Shown here in pieces: positions 32,902 through 58,317 of a DNA stretch of 64,000 nt (its first letter is position 1; every line of letters starts with the position of its first letter). The position numbers and the translations under genes were made by a program. The stretch spans positions 2,456,001 through 2,520,000 of the forward strand of contig NC_019903.1 in assembly GCF_000243135.2 (NCBI RefSeq). The letters run 5' to 3'. This DNA comes from Desulfitobacterium dichloroeliminans LMG P-21439. Lineage in GTDB: Bacteria > Bacillota > Desulfitobacteriia > Desulfitobacteriales > Desulfitobacteriaceae. A model generated the notes under the pieces. It saw only the letters and a list, made by a program, of their open reading frames with translations. It searched no databases and was not told where the DNA came from.

Positions 32902-33414
32902 TTATGGCGAAGAGAAGTTGTCAGGTGCCACAAAATAAATCTTCAGGAGAACTTCTCCTCCACCTTTACCTAAGGCAGCCTCTTCTACCCCAATGGCTTG
33001 GTCCCCTATACCTTCAACCCGAATTAATCCCTTCTCTATTCCCTGCCAGGGTCCTTGGAGCTTAAAGCGAATTGATGCGGAATGGAGAAGGGAGGCGTTG
33101 TTTCCTTCATTAAGAATATCCTCTAAATTGTAGGAACGGACATTCACGTCCTCTGTCCTGAATATCTCTACGCATTCATCGATAGTCACCAATAAATCAT
33201 CCAAACGAGGGATATCTTCAGCTAATCTCTCGCCGGAGCTCTGAACTGAAGCTAATGACTCATCTAAAGCCGATTCTTCAAGAAGACTCTGGTATTCAAG
33301 CCAGTTAAGCAGGAGTCTCCCACTAACTAAGCAAAGCACAACAAATAAGCCTAGGAGGGCTATTTCAAGTATTTTTGCAGTCGGTTTCATGAATATTTTC
33401 CAGGGTCTATTCAT
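32902..33414 (-). CDS. pilO: PilO-like pilus assembly protein (cluster 1)
   Basis: 170 residues with one N-terminal membrane helix (about 15-35), a short coiled region and a C-terminal alpha/beta domain. This matches PilO/GspM architecture by shape and by position after a PilM-PilN gene (overlap of 8 bases), though identity is low. It would form the inner-membrane alignment complex with PilN. No other family fits better. Confidence 0.6.
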   Translation of the reverse strand: MNRPWKIFMKPTAKILEIALLGLFVVLCLVSGRLLLNWLEYQSLLEESALDESLASVQSSGERLAEDIPRLDDLLVTIDECVEIFRTEDVNVRSYNLEDILNEGNNASLLHSASIRFKLQGPWQGIEKGLIRVEGIGDQAIGVEEAALGKGGGEVLLKIYFVAPDNFSSP

Positions 33415-34870
33415 GGCGCACGGCCTTTAATGTGAATTGAATAGGCATGTGCTCCACAAGGGGTTTCTCTGCTACATGATAGTTGCTCAACACGACATTT
33501 TCCCATCCCCCAGCTTCGAGATCTTGAAATACACTTTGCACTTCCAGCGACTCCTTGGCCACCCCTTGCATCAGTAAGTTATTCCCTTTGAGTTCCATCC
33601 GCTCGAGCTGAATTCTCTCTGGATTATAAGATGATAATTCTTGCATAGCTAGACCGACTGTGGTCGGACTGTTTTTAACCATTACCCAAGCTTCTACTTG
33701 CTCTCTCTGTTGTTCTTCTGCTAAAGCTACGTTAGCCTTCATTTCACGAAGTCCGTTAACTTCATTATGCATGTTATCTAAGGTGTATCGAGAGGATGCC
33801 AGCATACCCAGTCCAATTAAATTGATGAGCAAAAGAAATCCTGCAGTTACCGTTTTCACGCGGTGGGACTTTTTCTTTCTCATTTCCCCTCGCCAAAAAT
33901 TATTAAGGGGGTTTTTCTCTTGATCAAGAGCTATTCCCAATACGGTTAGAAGTTTTTCCGGCTCGGGGCAAGGTATGGCTTGAAGCAGTTCCTTGTCAAA
34001 TGCAGCATAGAACGCTTCATCCACCTCTTGTAAAACGGACTCTTGTCCATGGACACGGTGCAGATATTCCACGATTCGTTTGCCCAATTCAGCCGTCTCA
34101 CTCCCCCGACCCCAGAGGATCCTATGCAAGTCACCTTGCTCGTTGTATGAAGAAAAATGAAGCAACAGCCGATGAATCTCTCTATCCCATTCTTTCTCCC
34201 CATAGCTATAAGCAGCTGCAGGTACGCTCCGGATCATCTCTGGAGTCTTCCCCTTATAGTAAATGCCTAAAATCTGACCAGCTTCTTGACGGAGAATAAG
34301 GGTATTGTCCTGTGGTTTAAATTTCAGAGCATTTCCCCAGACTAATTGAGAAAAGCTCACCCGCTCAATCTCAATATCTGCTGCTTGAAAACTGGATACA
34401 AGAGGAGTAAGGACTGATTTCCTTATGCCCGCTAAAATCACGTTTAAGCGAGGGGGGGAACTTTTCTCTTCACGAATCAAATAATCAACCATCAATTCTT
34501 TTTTAGGAATCGGTATCTCTTCTTCAGCTAAGTAATTTAGGAGTCCTTTGCGATCACCTTTTCTAGCCCAAGGGAGAGAATACTCACGGATGAATTGGTT
34601 TTGGATGGGTAAACCAATCCGTAGTTTTAGATGACAAGGCAATCTAAACTCGACTTTTCGTTCCTCTACGTACCTCTTGACAATCGATAGGAATTCCCCG
34701 GGTTGTTGAACCTTGCCCTGCTCGATGATGCCTAGAGGAAGAGGGACCGTTTCAAACTTTTCAACTGCAATAATAGCGTTCCCTTCTCTACCTTTATAAG
34801 AGCACCAAAGCCAACGCAATTCGTCCGCGGTTATCTCCACACATACTTTCCACCGAACCTGTGAGATCAT
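33407..34870 (-). CDS. PilM-PilN fusion protein (cluster 1)
   Basis: 487 residues. The first 320 form an actin-like PilM region (two ATPase lobes, with SLPWARKGDRKGLLNYLAEEEIP resembling the lipid- or PilN-facing helix). Residues 342-359 are a membrane helix preceded by basic KKKSHRVK, followed by a coiled coil and a PilN-type periplasmic ferredoxin-like domain. In most bacteria, and in cluster 2 of this window, PilM and PilN are separate proteins joined through the PilN N-terminal peptide, so a covalent fusion is functionally sensible. The start at 34870 is ATG. Confidence 0.75.
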   Translation of the reverse strand: MISQVRWKVCVEITADELRWLWCSYKGREGNAIIAVEKFETVPLPLGIIEQGKVQQPGEFLSIVKRYVEERKVEFRLPCHLKLRIGLPIQNQFIREYSLPWARKGDRKGLLNYLAEEEIPIPKKELMVDYLIREEKSSPPRLNVILAGIRKSVLTPLVSSFQAADIEIERVSFSQLVWGNALKFKPQDNTLILRQEAGQILGIYYKGKTPEMIRSVPAAAYSYGEKEWDREIHRLLLHFSSYNEQGDLHRILWGRGSETAELGKRIVEYLHRVHGQESVLQEVDEAFYAAFDKELLQAIPCPEPEKLLTVLGIALDQEKNPLNNFWRGEMRKKKSHRVKTVTAGFLLLINLIGLGMLASSRYTLDNMHNEVNGLREMKANVALAEEQQREQVEAWVMVKNSPTTVGLAMQELSSYNPERIQLERMELKGNNLLMQGVAKESLEVQSVFQDLEAGGWENVVLSNYHVAEKPLVEHMPIQFTLKAVRHE

Positions 34871-34897
34871 GAGTTGACCCTCCAGAAATGAATACTA

Positions 34898-35662
34898 TTA
34901 GCTAACAAGGGTGGTGTATACAGTTATTATTTGCTTCCCCCAAAAGAAGACAATCCAGGCCCCTAAAACCAGATAAGGCCCAAAGGGAATCTGATCACGG
35001 AAGGTTCGCATCTGAAAAGATATCATGGCCAGCCCAACTATTGATCCCACAAAACTAGCGATGAAGATAGCAATGAATATCTCCGGCACTCCAAAGAAGG
35101 CCCCTAGCCCAGCGATGAGTTTTACATCCCCAAAGCCCATGCCTTGGGGATAGCTCCAGGCAATCAGCCAAAATACCCCCCCAACGCCTAGGGCTGTTCC
35201 GAGGCTTTCCCACCCTGAAAGGCCATGAGGCGAAGCAAAACCTACCACAATACCGATTACCAGTAACGGGAGAGTGAACAGATCCGGCAAACGAAAAGTA
35301 TCCCAATCGATTGCGGCTAGGACTAGAAGGGTGGAAAGAAAATAGAAGTTAATTACTAACTGGAGTATAGATCCTGTGTTGTCTTGCCAGGTGGCGAAAA
35401 AGTACAGTACACCGTTAAGAAGCTCCAATAGAGGATAACGCCAGGAAATCTTTGTCTGGCATAGCGAACATCGCCCTTTTAGAAACAGAAAGCTTAGGAT
35501 GGGTATTAATTCCCAAGGTCGGAGATGATGTCCACAGGAAGTACAGTGAGACCCAGGGAAGACTACAGATTCTCCTCGAGGCAGACGGTAAATAACTACA
35601 TTCAAAAAACTACCGATTATAATCCCTAATAGTCCAAAAAATAAAGAGGCTTCAATTCCCAC
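34898..35662 (-). CDS. pilD: Prepilin peptidase / N-methyltransferase (PilD)
   Basis: A polytopic aspartic protease that cleaves prepilin leaders and methylates the new N-terminus. Visible features are the GIIIGSFLNVVIYRLPRGESVV start, a zinc-type C-x-x-C pair (HCTSCG and RCSLCQ), the first catalytic Asp in AAIDWDTFRLPD and the second in GFGDVKL. The GTG at 35662 follows AAGGA at 8 bases; the longer ATG at 35680 has no clear site. It is the only prepilin peptidase in the window, so it probably serves both clusters. Confidence 0.93.
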   Translation of the reverse strand: MGIEASLFFGLLGIIIGSFLNVVIYRLPRGESVVFPGSHCTSCGHHLRPWELIPILSFLFLKGRCSLCQTKISWRYPLLELLNGVLYFFATWQDNTGSILQLVINFYFLSTLLVLAAIDWDTFRLPDLFTLPLLVIGIVVGFASPHGLSGWESLGTALGVGGVFWLIAWSYPQGMGFGDVKLIAGLGAFFGVPEIFIAIFIASFVGSIVGLAMISFQMRTFRDQIPFGPYLVLGAWIVFFWGKQIITVYTTLVS

Positions 35663-35693
35663 GCGCTTCGTCCTTTCCATGTGTAAAACTAAG

Positions 35694-36188
35694 TTAATTT
35701 GCCGAGCTCCACAACACCTTGTTTAGCCCTGAGTCGTAGACTCGTACTTCCGCTGCAGAACCATCCGTTGTTAGATATAACATGATAAGATTGCTCTCCG
35801 CATCATCAGGTATCGATCCGTCTGCTGATAATGAGGCAACTCCAAAACCTTTTTTACCTGCCGCAGCGTCTTGTTGGGTATTATCTTGGGTGAGTTTGCT
35901 AATATACTTAGGAATAAGTGGGGCGGCTGTAATATTTCCACTCGTATCGCGGATGATTTCCATTGTTTTTGGGTAAATTCCATTTTCTACTTGATAGCGG
36001 TCTAAAGCAGACTTCACTTGGTGACCTGTCGAAATATCGGCATTCCTTCGCGCTATCTCTGAGCTCGCACTCAATCTGGGAATAACAATAGCAGACAGCA
36101 TAGCTAGAATAAAGACCACTAATAAGACTTCTACTAAGGTAAACCCCTGTTGTGCTTCTTTACCTTTCCTTTGCTCAAACTGCATATT
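35694..36188 (-). CDS. Type IV pilin / GspG-like prepilin (cluster 1)
   Basis: About 164 residues. The prepilin leader ends at Gly14 and the mature protein starts FTLVEVLLVV with Glu5. A 20-residue hydrophobic helix follows, then a domain with SGNITAAPLIPKYISKLTQ and a tail resembling calcium-binding pseudopilins. The ATG at 36188 fits the leader; the frame is open further up. It lies between pilC and pilD and is a candidate major pilin of cluster 1. Confidence 0.87.
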   Translation of the reverse strand, partial: NMQFEQRKGKEAQQGFTLVEVLLVVFILAMLSAIVIPRLSASSEIARRNADISTGHQVKSALDRYQVENGIYPKTMEIIRDTSGNITAAPLIPKYISKLTQDNTQQDAAAGKKGFGVASLSADGSIPDDAESNLIMLYLTTDGSAAEVRVYDSGLNKVLWSSAN

Positions 36189-36219
36189 TCGTTCACTCCT
36201 TCTAGGAAATAGGGAGCAC

Positions 36220-37446
36220 TTACTGAATATGTGTCCCAAGATCGAAAATAGGCAACAGTACACCAACGGCTACAAGTCCTATGATTCCCGCTAAGACCAT
36301 CACAAGCAAAGGCCCAATAAGGTTTGGAACCCTATTCATTTGGTCTTCAAGCTCCATTCGGAACAGCTTGCTCAAATGATGCAGCATGGGACTAAGCTGC
36401 CCAGACTCTTCTCCCACTTCAATCATCTGCGCAGCATCCTTGGGAAAACCACCCGTATGCAGAAGGACGGGGGCCAATCTTCGGCCCATTCGGGCTGCCT
36501 CCTCAAGCTCGAGGACAAGGTTCTTCATTGAAAAGGTCTGTACTGTATCTCGAGTCAACCTTAATGCTTCCAAGAGGGGGACTCCAGCCTCTAGTAGCGT
36601 CCCTAACACCTGAGAAAATTTCAGATGATCATTCAGTTGATACACTTTGCCGAAAAGAGGTATATAACATAACTTGTCCCTGAATTTCTCTTGCCAGTAA
36701 TCCTGATTGCGGATACGTAGCACTATAAAAGATAAAATCCCTCCCAAACCAATCAAAAGGATCAATGCGGGTAAGCTATGGGAAACTCGAAAAATAATCT
36801 GTGTAAGCATTGGGAGTTCAGCCCCCATGCTCAGGAAAATTCGCTCATAGACTGGCAATACCATGAGGCTTAATGTATAGATGATTCCTAAAGTCAGTAT
36901 TAGAAGCAAGAGAGGATAAGCTAGAATTCCCCTTAATTTGCTCCGATACTTATGCTCCTCCATTAATTCTCCGGATAATGTGCCAAGAGCCTCGGGCATC
37001 TTGCCTGCTCGTTCCCCTGCTTGAACCATCGCCTTAATATAAGGAGTAGGGGGAAGAGCCATGACCTCCAGAGCATCGGAAAACTCTGCCCCTGCTTCCA
37101 GCTGTTCTATTACCTGATCCCATCCGTAACGGTTGATTCGAGATGTTTTATGCTGCTTTGCCAGGATATCAATAGCAAGAAGTAAAGGAATTCCTGCTTG
37201 GAGCAGGAGAGCTAGGCGGTGGGTGATACTTGCCCAGATCCTGAGTTTGTCACTTTTCACATTCAAATAATTAAGATACCCCATCAATAGGGTTAGCTTA
37301 CGCCCTCGAGGCACAATGGCTAAGGGATAATATCCTTTGGCATATAAACGCTTTCTAACCTCTGTATCATGCTTTACGTCCCATATTCCTTCGAAGGTAT
37401 TCCCTTCTTGATCCAAGGCCTTCCAGGAAAAACTGTAATTCCTCAT
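36220..37446 (-). CDS. pilC: Type IV pilus inner-membrane platform protein PilC (cluster 1)
   Basis: 408 residues of the GspF/PilC family: a short N-terminal domain (KALDQEGNTFEG), then two repeats of the GspF domain, each ending in membrane helices (about 165-190, 215-240 and 375-400). Family segments include ALEVMALPPTPYIKAMVQAGERAGKMPEAL and QMIEVGEESGQL. It is the platform turned by the PilB ATPase during fibre assembly. Confidence 0.93.
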   Translation of the reverse strand: MRNYSFSWKALDQEGNTFEGIWDVKHDTEVRKRLYAKGYYPLAIVPRGRKLTLLMGYLNYLNVKSDKLRIWASITHRLALLLQAGIPLLLAIDILAKQHKTSRINRYGWDQVIEQLEAGAEFSDALEVMALPPTPYIKAMVQAGERAGKMPEALGTLSGELMEEHKYRSKLRGILAYPLLLLILTLGIIYTLSLMVLPVYERIFLSMGAELPMLTQIIFRVSHSLPALILLIGLGGILSFIVLRIRNQDYWQEKFRDKLCYIPLFGKVYQLNDHLKFSQVLGTLLEAGVPLLEALRLTRDTVQTFSMKNLVLELEEAARMGRRLAPVLLHTGGFPKDAAQMIEVGEESGQLSPMLHHLSKLFRMELEDQMNRVPNLIGPLLVMVLAGIIGLVAVGVLLPIFDLGTHIQ

Positions 37447-37484
37447 TACTATTCCCTCTTTAACGTTAGCAATATTTTACTCTC

Positions 37485-39254
37485 CTAACTCGGTATTCGA
37501 CTGGTGGAATGCCATATCTCTTCAAGGCTCGTAAGTCCTTCTTGAACTTTCCTATAGCCATCTATGCGCAAGGACACCATCCCTCCGGCAATAGCTCTTT
37601 CTTCTATCCAATGTGAACCTTTACCTTCTAAGACCAATTCTTTTATGTCCTGATGATAGAGAAGTAGTTCATGGATGCCAATTCTCCCTGAATATCCCGT
37701 CTCTCGGCAGAAAGGACATCCTTGGGCCTTATAGACTTGCCCGATGCCCTCTGGAAGATCCATAACCTCCCTCTCTAGAAAGTCCAGATTCCAAGGCACC
37801 TTGCAATGATTGCAAAGACGACGAACTAAGCGTTGGGACAAAACACCCCGCACAACTGCAGCAACGAGATAGGGTTCGATTCCCATATCCAGAAGACGTG
37901 TGAAGGCTTCAGCTGCTGTATTGGTATGTAAAGTGGATAAAACAAGATGTCCGGTCAAGGCCGCAGCTATGGCAATACGAGCAGTCTCCTCATCACGGAT
38001 TTCACCAATCATAATCACATCGGGATCCTGCCTCAAAATCGAACGCAGTCCTTGCGCAAAAGTCAACCCAATCTTTGGCTGAACCTGTACGGATACAACT
38101 CCAGGCAGCTGATACTCTACCGGATCTTCAATAGACACCAGATTGAGTGTTTCAGAGACCAGCTCCTGTAACAAAGCGTAGAGAGTTGTGGTTTTCCCGC
38201 TACCCGTCGGCCCGACCACAAGAATAATGCCGTGGGGTTCCTTGATCAAACGTCGAAGCCTGCTTTCAACCTCTAGGCTCATGCCTAGAGACAGTAAAGT
38301 GCGTTTTGCCGTATCCACATCGAGTATACGCACCACGATTTTCTCCCCATAGATACTAGGAAGACTGGAGACTCGAAGATCAATCGTTTTGCCATTGACT
38401 GCAAACGTACTTCTTCCATCTTGGGGAAGGCGGCGTTCCGACACATCCATACCTGACATAATTTTTATTCGCGCAAGAAGATTCCGCGCAACCCCCAGAG
38501 GGAAGGAACGTTTAGTTTCCAGCTTACCATCAATTCGAAACCGCACTCGTAATGCGGCTTCTCCGGGCTCCCAATGAATATCGCTTGCCCCTAGCATGAT
38601 AGCCTCCCCAAGAAGAAAGTCCACCAATTGGATGGTGGGAGCGTCATGCCCTTCCTCACAATCTAAGCCTCTAATCCGTTCCGTCCCTCGGTCCGTTAAT
38701 TCCTCCTGACCCAAGGCCAGTTCAGCAATACTCTTCTCAACGGTGAGGAACTTTTTAATGGCGGACACCACCTGATCCTCAGAGACGAGCAAGGGTTCCA
38801 CTTCAAATCCTGTTAATATTCGAATATTCTCCACGGCACGATGATTACCTGGATCGAACATGGCTACCTGGATAATTCTATCTTTTATTTCTACTGGGAT
38901 AGCACCGTAACGCATAGCTGCTTCTTCGTTTAATAAGGAGGCCACTTTCGGGTCAATAGTGACTTGATTCAGATCGATTTGAGCAACGCCTAAGTACTTG
39001 CTGAGTTCATTGAGCATTTGTTCCTTAGTCAGCACCTTCTTGTTCGTCAAAATCTCGCCAAGCCGCGCACCTGTTTCCTTTTGTTCGCGTAAAGCCTCGG
39101 CCAGTTGACTAGGGTCAATACTATTCTGTGCCATGAGATATTGACCAAATCCTCCCCCGAGTGATGTAGAGTGCTTCCATTTCTCTTTTAAGTTTACTTG
39201 GTAATGAGCCTTCTGGCGGCGATTGCCCCAAAGAGTTATCTTATTCATCTCCAT
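37485..39254 (-). CDS. pilB: Type IV pilus extension ATPase PilB (cluster 1)
   Basis: About 589 residues of the GspE/PilB family. An N-terminal MshEN-type domain (ARLGEILTNKKVLTKEQML, typical c-di-GMP-binding fold in some members), Walker A GPTGSGKTTTLYALL near residue 355, the Asp box and Walker B RQDPDVIMIGEIRDEET, and a zinc-binding set CNHC/CPFC. Starts at 39254 or 39248 are both near AGGAG. The N-terminal MshEN similarity raises the possibility of c-di-GMP control; this needs direct comparison of the two arginine/glycine motifs. Confidence 0.94.
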   Translation of the reverse strand: MEMNKITLWGNRRQKAHYQVNLKEKWKHSTSLGGGFGQYLMAQNSIDPSQLAEALREQKETGARLGEILTNKKVLTKEQMLNELSKYLGVAQIDLNQVTIDPKVASLLNEEAAMRYGAIPVEIKDRIIQVAMFDPGNHRAVENIRILTGFEVEPLLVSEDQVVSAIKKFLTVEKSIAELALGQEELTDRGTERIRGLDCEEGHDAPTIQLVDFLLGEAIMLGASDIHWEPGEAALRVRFRIDGKLETKRSFPLGVARNLLARIKIMSGMDVSERRLPQDGRSTFAVNGKTIDLRVSSLPSIYGEKIVVRILDVDTAKRTLLSLGMSLEVESRLRRLIKEPHGIILVVGPTGSGKTTTLYALLQELVSETLNLVSIEDPVEYQLPGVVSVQVQPKIGLTFAQGLRSILRQDPDVIMIGEIRDEETARIAIAAALTGHLVLSTLHTNTAAEAFTRLLDMGIEPYLVAAVVRGVLSQRLVRRLCNHCKVPWNLDFLEREVMDLPEGIGQVYKAQGCPFCRETGYSGRIGIHELLLYHQDIKELVLEGKGSHWIEERAIAGGMVSLRIDGYRKVQEGLTSLEEIWHSTSRIPS

Positions 39255-39696
39255 GAATCTCCTGATACTGTTCAATTTCCCATTGTTCATCCACTTTTAG
39301 AAGTATCACTTTTATTTTGCGCTTGATCTGCCCATAGTGTGCTGATGAAGTCAGGGCATATCTCCCTTCATTGCCTACAACCTGAACATGCACATTACCA
39401 TCCCCGATACGAAGATCTCCTTCGCTAAAGCTTGGATCCTCTCTTAGCTTTACCTTAACCCACTCTATCCCACTCTCCGCTCCATAGACTGCTTGGCGGG
39501 AGCTGACCTCCTTACGAGCAATTTTGTTTTCTCCATGGGCTTGAACATACATTTCCAACCCATAGGCTGAAAGAGTAGCTAAAAGTACAAGCATAAGCAG
39601 GGTAATGTAGCCTAATTCACGGTGTCTCGCACCCTGATTTTTCCTTGCCAAAACACATTCTGTTTCCTTATTTGCCCTTGGAAGCTTATGGTCCAT
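39241..39696 (-). CDS. PilX/GspK-like pilus assembly protein (cluster 1)
   Basis: About 151 residues with a hydrophobic helix at ELGYITLLMLVLLATLSAYG, but no Glu at +5, so it resembles PilX_N/GspK-type proteins, not ordinary pilins. A beta-rich domain follows. The ATG at 39696 with AAGGAG is the best start, giving an 85-base overlap with the upstream prepilin gene in a different frame; a shorter start near 39651 (TTG) is possible. Likely a minor tip component. Confidence 0.65.
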   Translation of the reverse strand: MDHKLPRANKETECVLARKNQGARHRELGYITLLMLVLLATLSAYGLEMYVQAHGENKIARKEVSSRQAVYGAESGIEWVKVKLREDPSFSEGDLRIGDGNVHVQVVGNEGRYALTSSAHYGQIKRKIKVILLKVDEQWEIEQYQEIHGDE

Positions 39697-40103
39697 AGTC
39701 CCGACTCTCCTTGATCGCAATTCCAATCCACAATTCCACTGACTACTGGGTTATCAATTCCTTTATGGACTCGGTAGAAATCTTTAACACCATCATTATT
39801 TTTATCCTCCAGGTAATAATGATCACTATCAGCCTCTCTACTAGGGTTTACCGTTAAAGTCCATTTTCCGTTTTTGTTCGCCCACTGTACGGACTCCGCT
39901 TCACGGATGGCATCACTGACTAATCTCCCGGCAGTGACAGCGGCATAATGAGCCTCCATCTTATCTTTGCAAACCCGGCTAGTGCCCCATTGGTCAAGGA
40001 ATAACTGTAAGGATACCACCAAGAGTATCCCCGTAAGTAGTAAGGAAAACAAAACCTCAACTAAGGTAAAGCCTAGATCGCTATATCGGATTTGGCCATC
40101 CAT
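39612..40103 (-). CDS. PilW/GspJ-like minor prepilin (cluster 1)
   Basis: 163 residues. Leader ends at Gly11, mature start FTLVEVLFSL with Glu5, then a hydrophobic helix (about 12-32) and a beta-rich domain with a GIVDWNCDQGESGLWTISFQG-like C-terminal strand region. ATG after GGAGGAGG. It belongs to the minor pilins that prime fibre assembly. Confidence 0.82.
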   Translation of the reverse strand: MDGQIRYSDLGFTLVEVLFSLLLTGILLVVSLQLFLDQWGTSRVCKDKMEAHYAAVTAGRLVSDAIREAESVQWANKNGKWTLTVNPSREADSDHYYLEDKNNDGVKDFYRVHKGIDNPVVSGIVDWNCDQGESGLWTISFQGQIRKQNVFWQGKIRVRDTVN

Positions 40104-40126
40104 CTAGGTCACCCTCCTCCAAGCCA

Positions 40127-40510
40127 TCATTGCATAGCATAAAGATTTTCCAAGCAATAAACCCGTACACTTCCTTGTTCTAGCCAAGCTATCTCCACCC
40201 TCACCCGTATTAGCTCCTCCGGGAGTTCCCAATCAGCATCTATCGTCCAACGGAAGATTCCCTCCCATCCTTCTACTTCTCCTCCGGGTAGACAACGACC
40301 GGCATTGATGTTATCCCGCCAAGAATCCCCAGCAAGGGATTCCAAAATGCTTTGGGCCTTATTGGCCGCTTCCGTGATTCGGAGTGCTTGTTCAGCTTCT
40401 TTTATAGCACTTTCGCTTAAGCCATATAAAGCAGCAAAGCCCAGTGTGAAAAGAAATAGGGCTAGGACCACATCCAATAAAACGAAGCCTTGATTGCGGT
40501 TAATCGTCAT
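40127..40510 (-). CDS. PilV/GspI-like minor prepilin (cluster 1)
   Basis: 127 residues with leader ending at Gly8 and mature start FVLLDVVLALFLFTLG. The residue at +5 is Asp, not the usual Glu. A hydrophobic helix and a small beta domain (GWEGIFRWTIDADWELPEELIRV) follow. Overlaps the end of the upstream gene by 11 bases. Confidence 0.8.
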   Translation of the reverse strand: MTINRNQGFVLLDVVLALFLFTLGFAALYGLSESAIKEAEQALRITEAANKAQSILESLAGDSWRDNINAGRCLPGGEVEGWEGIFRWTIDADWELPEELIRVRVEIAWLEQGSVRVYCLENLYAMQ

Positions 40511-40841
40511 GGGTTATTTTTCCTCTTTCGTCCAGCTCATAGGGTTCTCCGCCCCTTGTTGGCTTAACTAATTCCTCGTCGAGATAGGGTCCCCGCCAGC
40601 CTTTGACCTCAGGAGGGGATAAATACAAATCTTCCAGTCGCTGGGGCAGTACTCCCGTATCCATTTTATATAGCTCGACTGCCCCTTCAATACGTACTCG
40701 ATTCGCAGCATCGATCTGTGTGCGAGTGACACCATCGGCAGAACTGAATCGAGGTGCAGCAATTGATATGACTGCCATGATAAGAAAAAGGATTAACAGC
40801 ATTTCAAGTAAAGTAAAACCTTCTTGGCTTCTCTTCTCCAT
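40500..40841 (-). CDS. GspG-like pseudopilin, first gene of pilus cluster 1
   Basis: About 113 residues from the ATG at 40841 (leader MEKRSQEG, mature FTLLEMLLILFLIMAV). The C-terminal half VLPQRLEDLYLSPPEVKGWRGPYLDEELV is the classic GspG calcium-site region. The open frame runs up to 40952 but codes nothing pilin-like there. No strong promoter was found upstream; the aroB terminator at 41029-41074 sets the boundary. Confidence 0.85.
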   Translation of the reverse strand: MEKRSQEGFTLLEMLLILFLIMAVISIAAPRFSSADGVTRTQIDAANRVRIEGAVELYKMDTGVLPQRLEDLYLSPPEVKGWRGPYLDEELVKPTRGGEPYELDERGKITHDD

Positions 40842-41028
40842 AAAATAGCCCCATTCTCCTATATCATATAGTAAATTAGTCCTAATCCGATTAAACAATA
40901 CTATTCTACTAATTCCATAAAGAAATCCTTCTTCTTTATTCTCATTAGACATTCTTTCTCTAATTTAGAGCAATGTTTTCTTCTTGCTTCAAGATAATCC
41001 TTTTTTTGGTATTTTACGACAATTCTAG

Positions 41029-43913: not shown

Positions 43914-44378
43914 TCATTTTACTTCCTCCCGAACTCTGCCTGTAATCAATGCCGTAATCACATTTCTTGTGCTCTTGCCATTGGTCAGGGAAATCGTACC
44001 CGTCAAAGGAGGACTGCCCACAAAACTGGTAGTGCCCCCAGCAGAGAAACGAACGGTACTGGGACGATTGGCAAAGCTAATTTTCTGAGGAAGTGAACTA
44101 TTCTTCACTAAGGATCCCTCTCGATAAATTCTATACGTGTCGTTGCTTTCATAAAAACGAATCTCATACCAAACATCTTCGGCTAAGGCGCTGGTCCTTG
44201 CCTCCCGCAAATCTTGGACGATTTGAGTGCTCGCTAAAGATAAGTTGCGATTCTCCATCTGGACCGGTAGTTTCACCAATAAAACAAATCCTGCCCCCGC
44301 CAAAAGAGTCAGGACCAAAAGGACTTCCAGCAAGGTAAATCCTTTGGAGAGCATTTTGCTCCCCTGCATTACCTTCAT
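43914..44378 (-). CDS. GspH/FimT-like prepilin inside the shikimate operon
   Basis: 154 residues with leader ending at Gly13 and mature start FTLLEVLLVLTLLAG (Glu5). A hydrophobic helix is followed by a beta-rich domain like GspH. It lies between aroE (28 bases before) and aroC (12 bases after) in the same orientation, so it is read from the yqeG-aroE transcript. It is about 3 kb from pilus cluster 1 and supplies the GspH-type minor pilin that cluster lacks. Confidence 0.83.
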   Translation of the reverse strand: MKVMQGSKMLSKGFTLLEVLLVLTLLAGAGFVLLVKLPVQMENRNLSLASTQIVQDLREARTSALAEDVWYEIRFYESNDTYRIYREGSLVKNSSLPQKISFANRPSTVRFSAGGTTSFVGSPPLTGTISLTNGKSTRNVITALITGRVREEVK

Positions 44379-49722: not shown

Positions 49723-50292
49723 TTATCTGCTTTGGGCATTTTCGGTCTGTGGTTGTTCTTCACCGGCCTTACCAGCATAGGCAATCAAGTGAATCTCTCC
49801 ATGAAGTATCCCCTTATCATTGGTAAAATTCATACTCTCCAAATTGAAGCGCTGGCCTTCCGAACGTTGGATGTCATTGATCATGTTGATTATACCTTGT
49901 CGGTTGCCCAGACAAGTAAATGTCAGTGACTGGGTAACATAGGAATCGATTGCTTCAAGGCTTTCAAATGTCACAGCTTGGGGTTGAACCTGATTCATCT
50001 TGGCAACGGTATAAAGATCGACCACTAACTTTGGCTTATCAATTTTTTGCGGAATCTGATTTCTTAGAGTGTTATACTTTGTCTCAAGTTGTGCCACTTC
50101 CCTTTGCAGAGAAGAGCTTCTCTCCTGATACCCTAACAGGGAGGTATAACGGCTCTGCCTTTCTTCTATATAGTGTTGCAGCCCTTGAATCTCAGTCCAC
50201 TTAGGTGCAAATAGATATGTATAGTAGCTATAGGATAGACCTATAGTAACCAGTATCAAGAGTAAAATCAGCTGTCTTGACTCTTTGCTCAT
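49723..50292 (-). CDS. pilO: PilO-like pilus assembly protein (cluster 2)
   Basis: 189 residues: one membrane helix (about 7-25), a coiled coil (about 35-80), and a C-terminal domain with [21 protein letters not shown] and a final ferredoxin-like fold, the PilO pattern. The C-terminal tail is acidic and probably disordered. Last gene of the cluster before the terminator at 49677-49700. Confidence 0.85.
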
Positions 50293-50333: not shown

Positions 50334-50876
50334 TTATTTAAGTTTAAATTCCATATTTAAGGTCTGTTCTTTATCTTCCAAAGACAGAGTATCAAGATCT
50401 TTTGTCTCGAAATAGTTGGAACCCATCATTCCCAACCAAAAGTTTGCCGCATCCACCGGTGAAGGAAAGGTTATAGATGCCTTGAAGGAGTTATCCTTAT
50501 CCATCGTAAAGCTTACCAAGATAGCTCCGGTCGGTAGCTGCTGTTGGAGCCGATTAAGCACCTCACTAGGGTTCTTGCGGCCCTCGGCGATTAGCCCAAG
50601 GAGCTGTTCTTGAGCGCCTAACCTGCTCTCAAGGTCTTCCAACTGATAGACTAGTATATCGACATCCTGTAAGGAGGTAATCTTTTGATCTAACACATCT
50701 GCTTCCACAGCTAAGCGATACTCATAGAGCCAAGGCATACTGCCAAGGGCTGCAATAACCATCCCCACCCCTATTCCGGTCAGGATGCGCCTAGTTTTTC
50801 GTCTGGCAGCCTTTAAAGGTTCCTTCTGCTTTTCTCTCCATCTCTGAGCGAAATTTAATTGTAGTCTATCCTGCAT
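50334..50876 (-). CDS. pilN: PilN-like pilus assembly protein (cluster 2)
   Basis: 180 residues starting MQDRLQLNFAQRWREKQKEP. The first 25 residues are the cytosolic peptide that would bind PilM. A membrane helix follows (about 30-50), a coiled coil and a PilN fold with LPTGAILVSFTMDKDNSFKAS. The start immediately follows the pilM stop (no gap). Confidence 0.85.
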   Translation of the reverse strand: MQDRLQLNFAQRWREKQKEPLKAARRKTRRILTGIGVGMVIAALGSMPWLYEYRLAVEADVLDQKITSLQDVDILVYQLEDLESRLGAQEQLLGLIAEGRKNPSEVLNRLQQQLPTGAILVSFTMDKDNSFKASITFPSPVDAANFWLGMMGSNYFETKDLDTLSLEDKEQTLNMEFKLK

Positions 50877-52043
50877 TTAATCCTCCCGGATTGCCAGTCC
50901 ATATAAACTTCCGTATTTCATCCATTGCTCCGCAAAATCCCTGGACTTTCTTGTAAATTTCGGTCTCCAATCTTCTGGAAATCCCACTCTGGACTGAATG
51001 CCCATATTCTTCTCAAAAAGCGCTTCCAGATTTGCATAATCCGCGCATTCACCCGTGATGAAAATTTGGTCCACGGATTTCCCATAGTGTCGAGAGGCAA
51101 AGAAATTAAGAAACTCACTGAGAGTATTGAATACCGGTAATAATCTGACCTCCAGTTCGTCAGGAACGTTCGTTTCATCATGATCCACTAATTCAATCGG
51201 TTCAATTTCTTCAAATAGTTTAATTGGCTCGTTTGGGTTCCCTAGTTCGTTTGTTTCCAATAACTCACTTAATTCATCCTTCTCGGCTGGCTCTGTTAAT
51301 ACCCCCGTCTCCCCCTGCTCAAGGAAGTCGCCAAGGGAAATATCCATATCCGAATAAAGAAAAAAGACGCCATGTTCTATCAGCACTAATTCTACCCGGT
51401 CTTTTCCCAAATCAACAATCGCCATATCCGCTACCGGCACTTGATTCTTGTCTTCTCCCCACCCGGACAAGTAGCGATATAGGCGACATATACAGTCGGC
51501 TGAGAAATCCACAAGCTTTGGCGTAACACCGATACTATCCCAACGTTTCCATTGTTTTTCCCATTCATTCAGAGGGATAGCCACAAGAAGAACCCGCAGA
51601 CGTTCTTGTCCCTCTTCCTGAACTTTCTCCAAGATACGGTATTCGACGATATAATCAGAAATATTCAAGGTAAAGTACTGATCCACTTGCTCGGTCAACA
51701 ATTTTTCTAAATCCTTATTTGTCAGCTTAGGGAGAGTTATCATCCGCGTAATAACCCCTGGGCAAGAAAGGGTATACTTGACCTTCTTGAGGGGAACTCG
51801 CTGTTTTCTTAACCATTTCTTCAAATTCGCTGTAGAATCCAGCCAGTCTTGCTCCGGATTATTATGGACCGGGGGCATGATTTCAGCGTCATCCAACTCA
51901 TCAAATTCTTCGCGTTGAAACGCTGATTCTCCTTCAAATTCAAAAATCTGATGAATTTTTAAGTTTTTTCTCCGTCCAGATACCTTAGCTAATGTCCAAC
52001 GATTCCCCCGTACAAGTGCTAGCCATTGTTGCTTGCCAATCAC
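50877..52043 (-). CDS. pilM: PilM-like pilus assembly ATPase (cluster 2)
   Basis: 388 residues, actin-like (ASKHA) fold. TLSCPGVITRMITLPKL, the DIVDLG-like ADMAIVDLGKDRVELVL and DQIFITGECADY correspond to the family's nucleotide-binding elements. Between about residues 243 and 298 there is an insert rich in Glu, Asp, Asn and Pro with little order (ELSELLETNELGNPNEP...), which is not typical of PilM. It starts the pilM-pilN-pilO series. Confidence 0.82.
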   Translation of the reverse strand: MIGKQQWLALVRGNRWTLAKVSGRRKNLKIHQIFEFEGESAFQREEFDELDDAEIMPPVHNNPEQDWLDSTANLKKWLRKQRVPLKKVKYTLSCPGVITRMITLPKLTNKDLEKLLTEQVDQYFTLNISDYIVEYRILEKVQEEGQERLRVLLVAIPLNEWEKQWKRWDSIGVTPKLVDFSADCICRLYRYLSGWGEDKNQVPVADMAIVDLGKDRVELVLIEHGVFFLYSDMDISLGDFLEQGETGVLTEPAEKDELSELLETNELGNPNEPIKLFEEIEPIELVDHDETNVPDELEVRLLPVFNTLSEFLNFFASRHYGKSVDQIFITGECADYANLEALFEKNMGIQSRVGFPEDWRPKFTRKSRDFAEQWMKYGSLYGLAIRED

Positions 52044-52094: not shown

Positions 52095-53315
52095 CTAAGG
52101 TGGAGTTTCTTTTTCCCAAATAATTAGCCCCGGATTTTCACTATCTGCTGAAACCCTTAACTCACAAATACCGACGCGGTTAATCTCTATATCGTTTCTT
52201 GTCGGATGCTTATAAGTATATGAGGCAGAAATCAAGGTGGAATTACATCCTTCGACGCCTGTATCCATAACACCTGTGGCAACGTTGCCAGATAGAGAAG
52301 CAATTTGGGGATAGGTCGTTTTCCATACTACTTTGTTAGTTACATCTTCTGTTGTCCCATCCGAAAAATGGGCGGTTGCCGCCAATGTAACTTGTTCCCC
52401 GATTTTTAATGTTGTCAAAGAAGGTGTCACCGAGACTCGTTGAAGGGTCCTGACAGAATTATTTAAGAGCTCCCAGGGGCCATGTGGATCACTACTGTCT
52501 GGTGGCCCTGGTGGACTATTCCATTTCACACGGTAGCGGTTCCCCTCATAGCTTACAACATCCTTTGCGCTATAAATTCCATAGGGACGCCATTCATCTA
52601 TTAACTCACGCCACATGTCAGTTGTACCCGGCACGTTATCCACTCCAAACCCATTCCACTTTGCTTGCCAATAGCTAGATCCATAATAAACAATCGTATT
52701 CCCATTAACAAGTTCATAGAAATTTGAGTTCCTGAAATTATTCGTTACTTCCTGCCAGGTCGTATGTGCTTGTCCAGGCTCCTCTCCTACATAGCCATTA
52801 TGCCGAGCTAAGTACAATCTTTCGGTAGTTACCCCATCAATAGTAACACTGCGGACAACATACTCCCCTTTTATATATCTGTGATTTAGGTCCCATGTAG
52901 GATATTCTGGTTCACCTGGACCACCGGGCTCACCCGTACCACCACCTGATCCGAGAGCAAATCCCGCGGTTTTCACCCGGCTAATCTTCCCATACCTGCC
53001 CGTACTAATAATCAAATAGGAATCTTCTTCCGGAAGCTCTAGCCACTGAACACTAAAACTCCCACCCTCACCTAATGATGTGTTATTCAATACGGGTGAT
53101 GGTAAGTCATCACCTGCCTGAAAATCGTTTTTTTTCAGTATCGAAATTCCGTATTGAATACCCCCGTCGGCCAAATTATTGGCCCTAATTCCTGCTTCTT
53201 CTGATTGTATTAGTTTTAGGTTGGATATGACTATAGAAAAAAACACTCCAGAAATCATAAAAATGAGGAGAAGGGAAATAACGACTGTTAATAGAGCCGA
53301 ACCTCTTTCTTTCAT
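52095..53315 (-). CDS. PilX-like pilus protein with three chitin-binding-like modules and a Big2 domain (cluster 2)
   Basis: 406 residues from the ATG at 53315 (AGGGGGG upstream). A PilX/GspK-type N-terminus (KERGSALLTVVISLLLIFM, no Glu5) leads into a pilin-like domain, a Gly/Pro linker (122-139), three carbohydrate-binding modules of the CBM5/12 type (139-190, 194-240, 241-284) and a bacterial Ig-like group 2 domain (about 294-350) with VTPSLTTLKIGEQVTL. A two-Cys C-terminus follows. This is a good candidate for a polysaccharide-binding tip of the pilus. Confidence 0.78.
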   Translation of the reverse strand: MKERGSALLTVVISLLLIFMISGVFFSIVISNLKLIQSEEAGIRANNLADGGIQYGISILKKNDFQAGDDLPSPVLNNTSLGEGGSFSVQWLELPEEDSYLIISTGRYGKISRVKTAGFALGSGGGTGEPGGPGEPEYPTWDLNHRYIKGEYVVRSVTIDGVTTERLYLARHNGYVGEEPGQAHTTWQEVTNNFRNSNFYELVNGNTIVYYGSSYWQAKWNGFGVDNVPGTTDMWRELIDEWRPYGIYSAKDVVSYEGNRYRVKWNSPPGPPDSSDPHGPWELLNNSVRTLQRVSVTPSLTTLKIGEQVTLAATAHFSDGTTEDVTNKVVWKTTYPQIASLSGNVATGVMDTGVEGCNSTLISASYTYKHPTRNDIEINRVGICELRVSADSENPGLIIWEKETPP

Positions 53316-53326
53316 CCCTATCCCCC

Positions 53327-53878
53327 CTAATACATCCGTATCCAAGTCAGTAGCTCTTGCTCCTGCTCTCCGAAGGTGCTCTTGACCTTGAGATGAATCT
53401 GAAGAAGATGCTCCGTGACGCCTTGGAATTCTATAAACTCTACCTCATCTGCAATGAGATGTACCGCACTTGAAGGGGAGTCTCGATACCAAAGCTTTTT
53501 AGCTAGGTCATCATAATAGATTTTAGTTCCTATAGGTAGTTCGTTAAGATTCCCAGCCAAAACTTCTTGTTGAGGTTGTAAATTGATTAAGCACCGGGGT
53601 TCCTCTTCGCTCGGTTCTTGCGCATACACTCCCCTATTATCTCCACTACCATCATTACCAGCATAATACAATATATAAGGATTTAACCTTACTTCATCAA
53701 GGAGGCTAACCATAGCAGCGCGCGCCTTATTCTCAATATTATCCTGGTTGCTTACAGTATTAAACATGCGAATTTCACCACGTATAAGCTGTGATACAAT
53801 CATCATCAGAATACTAAAAATAACAATAGCCATCATAAGCTCAAGCAGGGTAAAACCTTTATCTTTTTTATTAATCAT
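53327..53878 (-). CDS. PilW/GspJ-like minor prepilin (cluster 2)
   Basis: 183 residues: leader to Gly8, mature start FTLLELMMAIVIFSILM (Glu5), hydrophobic helix and a large beta-rich domain with ADEVEFIEFQGVTEHLLQIHL. It overlaps the upstream gene by 4 bases. Likely a minor subunit of the priming complex. Confidence 0.85.
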   Translation of the reverse strand: MINKKDKGFTLLELMMAIVIFSILMMIVSQLIRGEIRMFNTVSNQDNIENKARAAMVSLLDEVRLNPYILYYAGNDGSGDNRGVYAQEPSEEEPRCLINLQPQQEVLAGNLNELPIGTKIYYDDLAKKLWYRDSPSSAVHLIADEVEFIEFQGVTEHLLQIHLKVKSTFGEQEQELLTWIRMY

Positions 53879-54234
53879 TCTTCCTTCACCCTATACGTTG
53901 TCAAAATCACAGGTTCCGGATCTGTAGGCGAACTTCGCAGATGCACCTTAACCCTTACTTGTTCAAGATGCTCATTCCCATCAACAGCTATCGTGCTCAG
54001 TACCACCTCAAAATCCTGAAAAGCAGGCAAATTAACGGTCGGAGTATATCCTTCCAACTGAGCCTCAAGTATCCCTGAGGCATAAAATAGCATTTGCTCT
54101 CTAACTTGAGTCTGATTGGAATATTGATGGGATACAGCGTCACCCTTCATGATAAAAGACACGCCTATTAGCAATATAGTCAAAGCTATAGCAACCTCTA
54201 ACATTGTCATTCCCTGCTCGCTATTGCCCTTCAT
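53875..54234 (-). CDS. PilV/GspI-like minor prepilin (cluster 2)
   Basis: 119 residues: leader MKGNSEQG, mature start MTMLEVAIALTILLIGVSF (first mature residue Met, Glu5 present), then a small beta domain. Overlaps the following gene by 4 bases. Confidence 0.83.
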   Translation of the reverse strand: MKGNSEQGMTMLEVAIALTILLIGVSFIMKGDAVSHQYSNQTQVREQMLFYASGILEAQLEGYTPTVNLPAFQDFEVVLSTIAVDGNEHLEQVRVKVHLRSSPTDPEPVILTTYRVKEE

Positions 54235-54274: not shown

Positions 54275-54775
54275 TTATTCCCAATTCACTCTTATATAAC
54301 CTGTTTGGGGTTCGATGTTTACCCCCACCCAGCGCTGATTTTTCGATTCCAGCCAAATAGTTCCACTATCTGATACAAACCCTCTGAAATCAAAATGTAC
54401 TCCATATCCAAGCAATTGACCTGTGCTCAAATCAGTGAAAGCTGAAATCCAAGAGTTCCTTGAAGCATCGGCCTGAAACGTTATTCCAGGTTCAAATTTT
54501 TTTTGTTCAAGTTCTACATAGTGTCCATCCTGATTTTGATAGACTGAAACACCATCGCTATTGAGCACCACGTAACTTGGACGCCTTTGGTCCATAGCTA
54601 TCTGCTTAGCATACTTTAACTCAGCTATCACTGCTTGAGTAGAGCCATCCAAACGATAATGCTCCATAGTGCTCTGGAACTTAGGCAGAGCAACTAAAGA
54701 TAGAATACCGATGATGGCTATGACAGTCATCAGCTCAATCATGGTAAATCCCCTTGTCCTATCACACTCCATCAT
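54275..54775 (-). CDS. GspH/FimT-like minor prepilin (cluster 2)
   Basis: 166 residues: leader to Gly9, mature start FTMIELMTVIAIIGIL (Glu5), hydrophobic helix and a beta-rich domain with VHFDFRGFVSDSGTIWL, typical of the GspH/FimT group. Overlaps pilC by 4 bases. Confidence 0.86.
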   Translation of the reverse strand: MMECDRTRGFTMIELMTVIAIIGILSLVALPKFQSTMEHYRLDGSTQAVIAELKYAKQIAMDQRRPSYVVLNSDGVSVYQNQDGHYVELEQKKFEPGITFQADASRNSWISAFTDLSTGQLLGYGVHFDFRGFVSDSGTIWLESKNQRWVGVNIEPQTGYIRVNWE

Positions 54776-55986
54776 TGAGCCCCCGACGCCATACTAAATA
54801 TGGGTAAAGCAATAGCGATGATCATACCCCCGGCAAAAATGCCGATAATCACCGTAAAGATGGGTTCTACTAAGGCAATCATCCGGGAAATACCTAGCTC
54901 TACTTTTTTATCGTATAAATTCGCTACTTCCTCCATCATTTCCTCGAGTCGACCTGTCTCCTCACCGATGGATATCATCTGAATCACCAAGGGATCAAAA
55001 AAAGATTCTTGTCCGAAAGCCAAAGCCAAAGCTTCTCCTTTTACGATGCGATCTTGGACACGAAGGATAGCTAAGCGGGACACCTCATTACCAACAATGG
55101 TTTCCATAAAACTTAAGATTGGGACGATGGGAATCGAAGAGTGTAGAAACAAGGCAAAGGTTCGACTGAAGCGGGAAATAACGACATTGCGCATATTACT
55201 GCCTAGGAGGGGCAGGCGCAACATAACGGAATCCCGATAATAGCGATACTTAGGAATCTTAAATAGCCGATGCAAAGCTACTACCAGCCCGATAATTACC
55301 ACGAGTAAATAGGGGCCAAATAATGTTAGAAAATTCGAGGCATTGATTAGGGCCTGAGTGATGGCCGGCAAGCTTTGCTCATTCTCCGTCAACATACCCA
55401 TAATCTCAGGTAAAAGAAAATTCATAAAAAAGATAACAATCCCGACAAGTACTGCGATTAGGATTACGGGATAAATCGAGGCGCTTTGGATCTTCTTGCG
55501 GATGAAATTCTCTCGATCATAGTATACCGCCATACTGTTTAAGACAGAATCCAGATTGCCACTTTCCTCCCCCACAGCCACTAGATTGATTAATAAATCC
55601 GGCAGAGCACCCTTACAATCCCGCATAGATTGAGATAGGGACTCACCTCGACTTACTCCTTGAATGATAGTATCTATCGCTCCCTTAAGCTGTTTGTCCT
55701 CCAACTGTAACTTAAGGACTTCTAACCCTCGCACAAGATTAGCACCGGAGCGGACCATCATGGCCATCTGACTACAGAAAGCTGAGATTGATTCATATTT
55801 GACTTTAGTCACAATTTTTTGATTCAGCAAATCACCCAGTCTCCGGGTCCCTACAAGAGAAATAATCTGCCAACCATTTTCCAAGGTAATCCGCCTAGCT
55901 GCATCAAAATCAACAGCCTCTAATGAGCCGACATTGATGTTCATATTTTCGTCAATGACTTTATATTTAAAACGCATTTTATCCAC
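54772..55986 (-). CDS. pilC: Type IV pilus inner-membrane platform protein PilC (cluster 2)
   Basis: 404 residues of the GspF/PilC family with two T2SSF domains. QMAMMVRSGANLVRGLEVLKLQ, VAVGEESGNLDSVLNSM and QMISIGEETGRLEEM mark the repeats, and about three membrane helices are near 170-190, 215-240 and 375-400. Works with PilB two genes before. Clearly distinct from the cluster 1 PilC. Confidence 0.95.
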   Translation of the reverse strand: MDKMRFKYKVIDENMNINVGSLEAVDFDAARRITLENGWQIISLVGTRRLGDLLNQKIVTKVKYESISAFCSQMAMMVRSGANLVRGLEVLKLQLEDKQLKGAIDTIIQGVSRGESLSQSMRDCKGALPDLLINLVAVGEESGNLDSVLNSMAVYYDRENFIRKKIQSASIYPVILIAVLVGIVIFFMNFLLPEIMGMLTENEQSLPAITQALINASNFLTLFGPYLLVVIIGLVVALHRLFKIPKYRYYRDSVMLRLPLLGSNMRNVVISRFSRTFALFLHSSIPIVPILSFMETIVGNEVSRLAILRVQDRIVKGEALALAFGQESFFDPLVIQMISIGEETGRLEEMMEEVANLYDKKVELGISRMIALVEPIFTVIIGIFAGGMIIAIALPIFSMASGAQ

Positions 55987-55989
55987 CCA

Positions 55990-57711
55990 CTACTCATTCA
56001 CATATGTCACACGTAGTAGCTCTTCGATTGTTGTTACTCCACTAATCACCAAATCAACAGCCGACATTTTCAAAGTGGTCATGCCCTGCTCCACAGCATA
56101 AGCACGCAACTCATCAGCTGTGGCTCCTTTATCAATTAAATTTCTATGTCCTCTAGATATAGGCATAATTTCAAAGATAGCCGTACGTCCTTTATATCCT
56201 GATTCATGGCAATAGGTGCATCCCCCTCCCCGTTTCAAAAGCAAAGGTTCATCCTGGGAACGACCCAATAATGCATAGTCCTTCGGCTCAGCAGGATATT
56301 CTTGGCTACAGTTGGGGCAGATCTTGCGCACAAGACGTTGAGAAATGATCCCAACGACTGAGGCAGAAATCAAAAACGGCTCAATATCCATATCAACCAA
56401 ACGGGTCACGGCACTGGGAGCATCATTCGTATGAATGGTGGATAAGACGAGATGTCCCGTCAAAGCGGAACGAACAGCTATCTCTGCAGTTTCATTATCC
56501 CGCATCTCCCCAACCATGATGATGTCGGGGTCCTGACGAAGAATGGAACGCAGACCCCTAGCAAAGGTCAAGCCCGCTTTCGGGTTGACTTGGATCTGGT
56601 TAACTCCTTTAAAATTATACTCCACCGGATCCTCAAGGGTAATAATATTTTTCTCAGGAGTATTGAGTTGATTAAGAGCCGTATACAGGGTAGTTGTTTT
56701 GCCACTTCCCGTGGGGCCAGTGACTAGAACAATTCCGTAAGGCTTCGCTATCAACTCATCAAAACTCTCCAAATCATCGCCATGAATACCTAGAGCTGAT
56801 TTCTCCAAAATCACTGAGCTCTTATCTAAAATCCGCAGAACCACTTTCTCTCCGTACATGGTAGGAGCCGTAGAAACCCGCAGGTCAATCATCTTTTTCC
56901 CTACCAGATAGGTTATGCGACCATCCTGAGGTAGTCGTCGCTCGGCAATGTTCATATCCGCCATTATCTTAACCCGACTCACCACAGGACCGGCCATGCC
57001 GACCGGTGTCCTCATAATCTCTCTAAGAACTCCATCAATGCGAAAACGAACCCTTAATTCATCATCAACGGGTTCGATATGAATATCGCTCGCAAAATTA
57101 TTAACAGCATTTTCGATGATTGTGTTTAAAAACTTAATGATAGGGGTCGTTTCTTCATCCGCTGCCTCTACCCCCGAGTGAACCGTTGCTAGCACTGATA
57201 CTTGAGAGGTGGCTGCGACTTGATCATAGCCTGTTTGCTTGACGAAATCACTGACTGCTTTGACCGCTTCACTCCGACCGTAGAAACGATCGATGGCCCG
57301 GAGAATGTCTACTTTCTTCGCTACACAAGACTTAATCATCACTCCTGAGGCCAAACGAATGTCATCCAAGGCATAGTAATCTGTAGGATCACTGGAGGCC
57401 ACCAAAAGCTGACCATTAGAAAATTCCACAGGCAAAACAGTATATTTACGGGCCACCGCTTCAGGGATCATCTTGAGAATATTCTCTGTGACAACGATAC
57501 GGTTTAGATCAACGGAAGGGAGCCCCAATTGCTTTTGAATTGTGCGGAGGATATCTTCTTCGGGAACGAAGTTTTGGCGGACAAGAACTTCACCCAAGCG
57601 GGAACCCAAAGACTTTTGGAGTTTTAGGGCTTCGATTAGTTGTTCTTCGGTTAGAGCGCCACCAGCTATTAAAATCTCACCGAGGCGTTTGCGTTCCTGC
57701 CTGATGGCCAT
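55990..57711 (-). CDS. pilB: Type IV pilus extension ATPase PilB (cluster 2)
   Basis: 573 residues. An N-terminal MshEN-type domain (RLGEVLVRQNFVPEEDILRTIQK), Walker A GPTGSGKTTTLYTAL near residue 330, RQDPDIIMVGEMRDNETAEIA (Asp box/Walker B) and a zinc site CPNC/CTYC. It drives pilus extension. It follows the major pilin gene after 177 bases that contain a strong hairpin. No retraction ATPase (PilT) was found in the window. Confidence 0.95.
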   Translation of the reverse strand: MAIRQERKRLGEILIAGGALTEEQLIEALKLQKSLGSRLGEVLVRQNFVPEEDILRTIQKQLGLPSVDLNRIVVTENILKMIPEAVARKYTVLPVEFSNGQLLVASSDPTDYYALDDIRLASGVMIKSCVAKKVDILRAIDRFYGRSEAVKAVSDFVKQTGYDQVAATSQVSVLATVHSGVEAADEETTPIIKFLNTIIENAVNNFASDIHIEPVDDELRVRFRIDGVLREIMRTPVGMAGPVVSRVKIMADMNIAERRLPQDGRITYLVGKKMIDLRVSTAPTMYGEKVVLRILDKSSVILEKSALGIHGDDLESFDELIAKPYGIVLVTGPTGSGKTTTLYTALNQLNTPEKNIITLEDPVEYNFKGVNQIQVNPKAGLTFARGLRSILRQDPDIIMVGEMRDNETAEIAVRSALTGHLVLSTIHTNDAPSAVTRLVDMDIEPFLISASVVGIISQRLVRKICPNCSQEYPAEPKDYALLGRSQDEPLLLKRGGGCTYCHESGYKGRTAIFEIMPISRGHRNLIDKGATADELRAYAVEQGMTTLKMSAVDLVISGVTTIEELLRVTYVNE

Positions 57712-57888: not shown

Positions 57889-58317
57889 TCAATTACGTCG
57901 AACCGTATTTTGGTATAAAATATCTGTTGTTGAAGAGCCATAGCCAGTAATTGTTATCCCACCAGCTGGAGAAGCTGCACCCGTCACTGCAACAACACCC
58001 TTAGCAGCAGCATCATCTATTGGAGTAGCAAATATAATAGCAGTGCCATCAAGTGGATTCTCCAACTTATTAGGACCAGTAGTAAACTGTCCTTCAATAA
58101 CGTCTTCGGCATCAGTTGAATTCTTTGCCCATCTGTCAATATTTGCGACTACATAGGCTTCTACAGACTTAGCATTAGTTGTCACTCCCGCATATTTCGC
58201 ACTATCCTTAACCCCACCCATTTTAGGCACCAAGACCACAGCTAAAATACCAATTACCGCAATAACAATCATAAGTTCAATGAGTGTGAATCCGCCATCT
58301 TTTTTTCTCTTTAACAT
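57889..58317 (-). CDS. pilA: Major type IV pilin PilA (cluster 2)
   Basis: 142 residues: leader MLKRKKDGG, mature start FTLIELMIVIAVIGILA with Glu5. The C-terminal domain is Ala/Gly/Thr-rich (TGAASPAGGITITG), with no cysteines, so no disulfide loop as in Gram-negative pilins. First gene of the cluster with its own promoter and a structured leader of about 145 bases. ATG is preceded by GGGAGG. Confidence 0.93.
   Translation of the reverse strand: MLKRKKDGGFTLIELMIVIAVIGILAVVLVPKMGGVKDSAKYAGVTTNAKSVEAYVVANIDRWAKNSTDAEDVIEGQFTTGPNKLENPLDGTAIIFATPIDDAAAKGVVAVTGAASPAGGITITGYGSSTTDILYQNTVRRN

Follow-up and report, generated by a model that had tools for sequence, protein, structure and literature searches.

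The window analysed here, a 64,000-nucleotide stretch of the Desulfitobacterium dichloroeliminans LMG P-21439 genome, holds on its minus strand a complete type IV pilus operon in the order PilA, PilB, PilC, FimT/GspH, PilV/GspI, PilW/GspJ, PilX/GspK, PilM, PilN and PilO. The PilX/GspK position is taken by an ORF that runs from an ATG at 53315 to a stop at 52095 and encodes 406 aa (hereafter, the 406-aa pilin). Its neighbors, together with the basis on which each was assigned, are:

57889-58317, minus strand: major pilin, PilA-like (gene order, Pfam)
55990-57711, minus strand: PilB assembly ATPase (gene order, ATPase search)
54772-55986, minus strand: PilC platform protein (by sequence)
54275-54775, minus strand: FimT/GspH-like minor pilin, Glu5 present (Pfam)
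53875-54234, minus strand: PilV/GspI-like minor pilin, Glu5 present (Pfam)
53327-53878, minus strand: PilW/GspJ-like minor pilin, Glu5 present (Pfam)
50877-52043, minus strand: PilM (Pfam)
50334-50876, minus strand: PilN, with a Pfam match below the cut-off
49723-50292, minus strand: PilO (Pfam)

No bona fide PilT scored above the cut-off in the genome, and retraction or pulling by this pilus is therefore doubtful. In addition, PilM had no match in three genomes of the same genus, so the operon is patchy in its distribution.

The 406-aa pilin is made up of the following parts:

53301-53315, minus strand: short prepilin leader MKERG, cut expected after Gly5 (sequence; all relatives start RG^[SAG]A[LM]L, with ^ marking the cut)
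52956-53300, minus strand: PilX/GspK-like pilin module, residues 6-120, with Thr instead of Glu at mature position 5 (sequence; gene order as the fourth minor pilin)
52911-52955, minus strand: Gly/Pro-rich linker, residues 121-135 (sequence)
52743-52910, minus strand: CBM5/12-like module 1, residues 136-191, diverged, with an insert VTIDGVTTE and no Trp at the stacking position (profile of relatives' modules)
52599-52742, minus strand: CBM5/12-like module 2, residues 192-239, with W220 at the first stacking position (profile of relatives' modules)
52461-52598, minus strand: CBM5/12-like module 3, residues 240-285, with W265 at the first stacking position (Pfam below cut-off; profile of relatives' modules)
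52143-52451, minus strand: Big_2 Ig-like domain, residues about 289-391 (Pfam below cut-off; PDB matches; alignment)
52098-52130, minus strand: C-terminal tail GLIIWEKETPP, residues 396-406, common to other proteins encoded between pilX and pilM (sequence; tail profile)

The N-terminus, MKERG^SALLTVVISLLLIFMISGVFF, combines the short leader with a hydrophobic helix. Neither the N_methyl motif of Pfam nor Pfam PilX_N matched the 406-aa pilin, and a short relative (L004) reached only 10.5 bits (E 0.65) with PilX_N; the putative PilX/GspK assignment thus rests on gene order and on an N-terminus with Thr at mature position 5. Glu occupies that position in PilA, FimT, PilV and PilW; in the 406-aa pilin and every PilX protein in the comparison, Thr, Val, or Met stands there instead. 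The absence of Glu5 is a mark of GspK, the tip subunit. Since the 406-aa pilin is the fourth minor pilin of a complete operon, lies in the PilX/GspK slot and lacks Glu5, a location at the pilus tip is likely. Its 290 extra residues would also sit poorly in the pilus shaft.

The three repeats at residues 136-191, 192-239, and 240-285 follow the pattern W-x(5)-Y-...-V-x-Y-x-G-x-x-Y-x-A/V-K-W-...-P-G-...-W. Pfam CBM_5_12 matches module 3 alone, at 20.7 bits against a cut-off of 26.2. We built a profile from 18 modules found in four other genomes, leaving out the 406-aa pilin. It detects exactly three modules in this protein (141-191, 195-238, and 240-284; total 47.8 bits), compared with 7.8 bits for the best of 1000 shuffled copies of the same protein. 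This shuffle test and the relatives rule out chance or a frame artefact as the source of the repeats. A second profile pooled 22 modules, of which 20 came from relatives and two from the 406-aa pilin; compared with solved domains, it matched S. griseus ChiC (2D49, E 7.5e-10) and a chitinase domain (2RTS, 4.3e-7), with further matches to 1ED7 (E 0.006) and 1AIW (E 0.007); 1WVU (chitinase C), which it also matched, is chitin-binding, as are 2D49 and 2RTS. Proteins of relatives score above the Pfam cut-offs of both CBM_5_12 and Big_2. On these profile grounds we call the modules of the 406-aa pilin divergent and CBM5/12-like, with the Pfam cut-off reached by relatives and not here. Structure prediction yielded no confident model: AlphaFold gave a pLDDT of 38.6 for the whole 406-aa pilin without an alignment and, for module 3 with an alignment of its own modules, three strands at pLDDT 60, and a Foldseek search of the PDB with the latter model returned no useful match.

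The Ig-like part scores 18.1 bits with Pfam Big_2 (cut-off 22.8). Despite this score, we regard it as a homolog of Big_2 domains because it matches Big_2 repeats of known structure, namely those of teneurin-like 9IFO (E 3.4e-7) and also LigB, and because relatives score above the cut-off. A genome-contig scan for relatives gave a single match, an unrelated Big_2; PADLOC returned nothing, and PHROGs gave just a weak tail-protein match on the Ig part. Collectively, the layout proposed by the initial annotation is borne out: three repeats resembling CBM5/12 at residues 139-284 correspond to the modules found within 136-285, a Big_2 domain does follow them, and the PilX/GspK-like N-terminus agrees with the leader, the operon position, and Thr at position 5.

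Two features go beyond that annotation, namely the spread of the array over different pilins and a C-terminal tail of docking type. With regard to the former, G022 and G016 encode PilX with five modules and Big_2 in the same gene slot, and in G062 PilX carries four modules without Big_2. The array is borne by a FimT-like pilin of the same operon in G058, and by a PilA-like (PilA/GspG-like) pilin with a Big_2 domain in G050. The module profile was also run against 82 genomes of the class and 398 of the phylum, which brought in prepilins from G153 and G422, a secreted protein from G283 and, as a weak case, a PilX-like protein from G431. Five loci had no part in training the profile (G062, G153, G422, G431, and G283), and four of them are prepilins. 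As the array is found on different pilins across these loci, it amounts to a portable, putatively adhesive cassette on at least three kinds of pilin (PilX, FimT-like, and PilA/GspG-like) in Bacillota. In a tree, the pilin modules of PilX were too short and long-branched to tell one fusion origin from several. In G283 (L066, 8130-10074), the array is on the secreted non-pilin, whose gene lies within a type IV pilus cluster and has a signal peptidase gene and one for a TasA-like protein as neighbors.

The tail concerns the interval between pilX and pilM (hereafter, the slot). Among the family members that we read, it holds either an extension of PilX or a separate secreted protein or lipoprotein, 194-1112 aa long. 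The bodies of these proteins differ (Big_2 arrays, DUF6701, or nothing recognised), yet they end alike: GGILWEKEVIE, KGLLWEKETI, GGSIIWEKEEP, ENLIYEKEIVQ, GGVIWEAEERP, EGSLWEVETPE, GGIIREWEQ, and DRLIWEQEIVEP. Indeed, nearly every slot occupant in relatives has an end resembling GLIIWEKETPP. This motif was first seen by eye and tested afterwards, and the fair evidence for it consists of ranks obtained with each protein's own clade left out of training, together with loci fetched later. With a profile of the last 20 residues used in this way, the held-out tail came top among 340 C-termini for 10 of the 16 slot proteins, the 406-aa pilin being one of them, and no lower than sixth for 15 of the 16; the sole failure was the PilX-fused protein of G018. 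The tail of the 406-aa pilin scored 18.7 bits, versus 3.1 for the best unrelated C-terminus. Two loci fetched after the test also fit (FLWEREIE in G067 and LIWEQEEVI in G010), and the tail is absent in genomes with a different gene order ahead of pilM.

A split state is seen in G062, where the CBM modules are on PilX, and the lipoprotein encoded next to it carries three Big_2 domains and ends in the tail. The Big_2 domain of the 406-aa pilin is 36-39% identical to each of those three. Because slot occupants share the tail, G062 shows the split state, and the Big_2 domains align at this level, the 406-aa pilin is best seen as a putative fusion of PilX, a CBM cassette, and the C-terminal part of a slot adhesin. 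In AlphaFold-Multimer models of the Myxococcus xanthus pilus tip, the last eight residues of PilY1 (LQNVYELP, SKVLIYAP) add a strand to PilX (PMC11046646), and by analogy the tail of the 406-aa pilin probably docks as that modelled strand does. The tail might instead be a sorting or cell-wall signal, as its occurrence on separate lipoproteins and secreted proteins would allow. Its restriction to positions beside pilX/pilM in the loci examined, and its presence on PilX, which is already anchored by its own helix, make this a somewhat unlikely explanation, although one that deserves some weight.

We therefore favor, with a probability of about 0.68, the view that the 406-aa pilin is a tip minor pilin enlarged into an adhesin, composed of a pilin anchor, three glycan-binding modules, a Big_2 spacer, and a docking tail. 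In this Gram-positive anaerobe, the pilin helix would anchor the protein at the pilus tip together with FimT, PilV, and PilW, and a Gly-rich hinge would lead from the helix to the CBM5/12-like modules. Aromatic stacking and avidity would let the three modules jointly hold an insoluble beta-1,4-glycan, be it chitin, cellulose, or a related polysaccharide of a wall or matrix, with the Big_2 domain serving as a spacer. The final strand, LIIWEKE, would then fold back and join the beta-sheet of the minor pilins as an added strand. This would happen in cis in the present case, and in trans for adhesins that are lipoproteins in their own right. By such a route, which is testable, non-cellulolytic anaerobes of the dehalogenating or sulfate-reducing type could attach to insoluble polysaccharide by means of a pilus.

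PMC5328894 describes chitin binding by the CBM5 of S. griseus chitinase C through two adjacent Trp. In the alignment of the 406-aa pilin with 2D49, these positions read W220-N in module 2, W265-N in module 3, and H172-N in module 1, such that at most one of the two Trp is kept per module and module 1 keeps none. Relatives' modules often have WY, YY, or YW there. The predicted binding may be weaker and dependent on the three modules together, and chitin, cellulose, and the matrix of the cell itself are all candidate ligands. The adhesive pilus tip proposed in the initial annotation is supported by the profiles, the operon position, and the relatives, with chitin as one candidate among its ligands.

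The Trp-to-Asn changes in modules 2 and 3, the lack of any stacking Trp in module 1, and the existence of same-slot relatives with Big_2 arrays alone and no CBM would all fit modules that derive from CBM5/12 and no longer bind polysaccharide. Together with Big_2 they would then form a spacer or scaffold, and the pilus would serve another role, such as biofilm formation, mineral contact, or secretion. We consider this unlikely, given that aromatic pairs are well kept in the modules of many relatives and that the repeated placement of arrays on pilins suggests selection for binding. It is similarly improbable that the array targets the envelope or biofilm matrix of the cell itself (peptidoglycan, a secondary wall polymer, or exopolysaccharide) instead of external chitin or cellulose: no other CBM_5_12 protein was found in the genome and the G283 array lies beside TasA-like and signal peptidase genes, but the closest relatives with a solved structure belong to chitin-active enzymes and a tip position favors external targets. 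The lack of another CBM_5_12 protein also counts against the favored reading, as does the fact that the three GH18-matching genes of the genome are no more than candidate chitinases.

The tip-adhesin reading of the 406-aa pilin can be set against known systems. A survey of modular pilins listed 264 architectures, several with carbohydrate-binding heads, and relied on the N_methyl signature (PMC8179133); it would miss a PilX-type protein like this one, as the carrier is PilX/GspK-like without Glu5 and is not matched by the N_methyl motif. In the literature that we searched, no report of CBM5/12-bearing pilins was found. The 406-aa pilin joins the known modular pilins, and the CBM5/12 array on a PilX-type carrier is a new form and not a new kind of system. 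Its closest counterparts include S. sanguinis PilC (Ig-like and lectin modules) and PilB (vWA module), which are likewise Gram-positive minor pilins with grafted adhesive and Ig-like modules and a predicted tip location (PMC9934059, PMC8179133). Where they have a ConA-like lectin or a vWA module, it has a CBM5/12 array; it also differs in its PilX/GspK-like carrier without Glu5 and in its conserved C-terminal tail. Compared with CBM5/12 domains such as those of S. griseus ChiC (2D49) and chitinase (2RTS), its modules share the length and the pattern W..Y..GD.V.Y.GK.Y.AKW...PG...W, with a significant profile match, but they form a tandem array on a pilin and not on an enzyme, with Asn in place of the second Trp in modules 2 and 3. 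The cellulose-binding type IV pili of Ruminococcus albus, cited in PMC3244431, also link a Gram-positive type IV pilus with polysaccharide adhesion; what that citing paper says of them does not give a CBM-bearing pilin.

PilY1/PilC tip adhesins of diderm type IV pili are, like the slot proteins, large and variable adhesins encoded with minor pilins, and have a C-terminal strand modelled onto PilX in M. xanthus (PMC11046646); here, by contrast, the adhesin is fused to PilX and the host is a monoderm. PilY1 is absent in monoderms (PMC9934059), and its beta-propeller is absent in the 406-aa pilin and in 10 slot proteins of relatives. We suggest that the 406-aa pilin works like PilY1 and is not a member of that family. 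More tentatively, at somewhat less than an even chance, Desulfitobacteriaceae-type monoderm pili may possess a separate class of tip adhesins that corresponds to PilY1 of diderms. Not a domain but a C-terminal strand docking on minor pilins, [ILV]-[ILV]-W-E-x-E, would define this class. Its heads (Big_2 arrays, DUF6701, and CBM5/12 arrays) would be freely swapped, and it would be fused to PilX in some genomes, this one included. We consider this tail-defined class the part most worth following: PilY1 is missing from Gram-positive type IV pili, and their tip adhesins, differing in their heads, are otherwise unrecognisable, so that the common tail offers a sequence handle for them.

Several further observations were made at these loci. 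DUF6701 occurs in the MSHA-pilus protein MshQ. A slot lipoprotein with DUF6701 (98.5 bits) and a WEKE tail lies at L026 7446-9332, which hints at a link between the slot adhesins of Gram-positive and Gram-negative pili. The PilN gene of G018 (L045 10345-11574) encodes 410 aa, about double the usual length. Within the window, a second type IV pilus or competence-like cluster occupies 33407-40952 on the minus strand, with a PilM-like protein, a prepilin peptidase, a GspG-like pilin, PilC, PilB, and more prepilins (assigned by sequence, with the peptidase and ATPase also found by search). Lastly, a lone GspH-like prepilin gene lies at 43914-44378 on the minus strand between two shikimate-pathway genes, which by sequence encode chorismate synthase and shikimate dehydrogenase. 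Relatives, L024 and L043 among them, have it at the same position.
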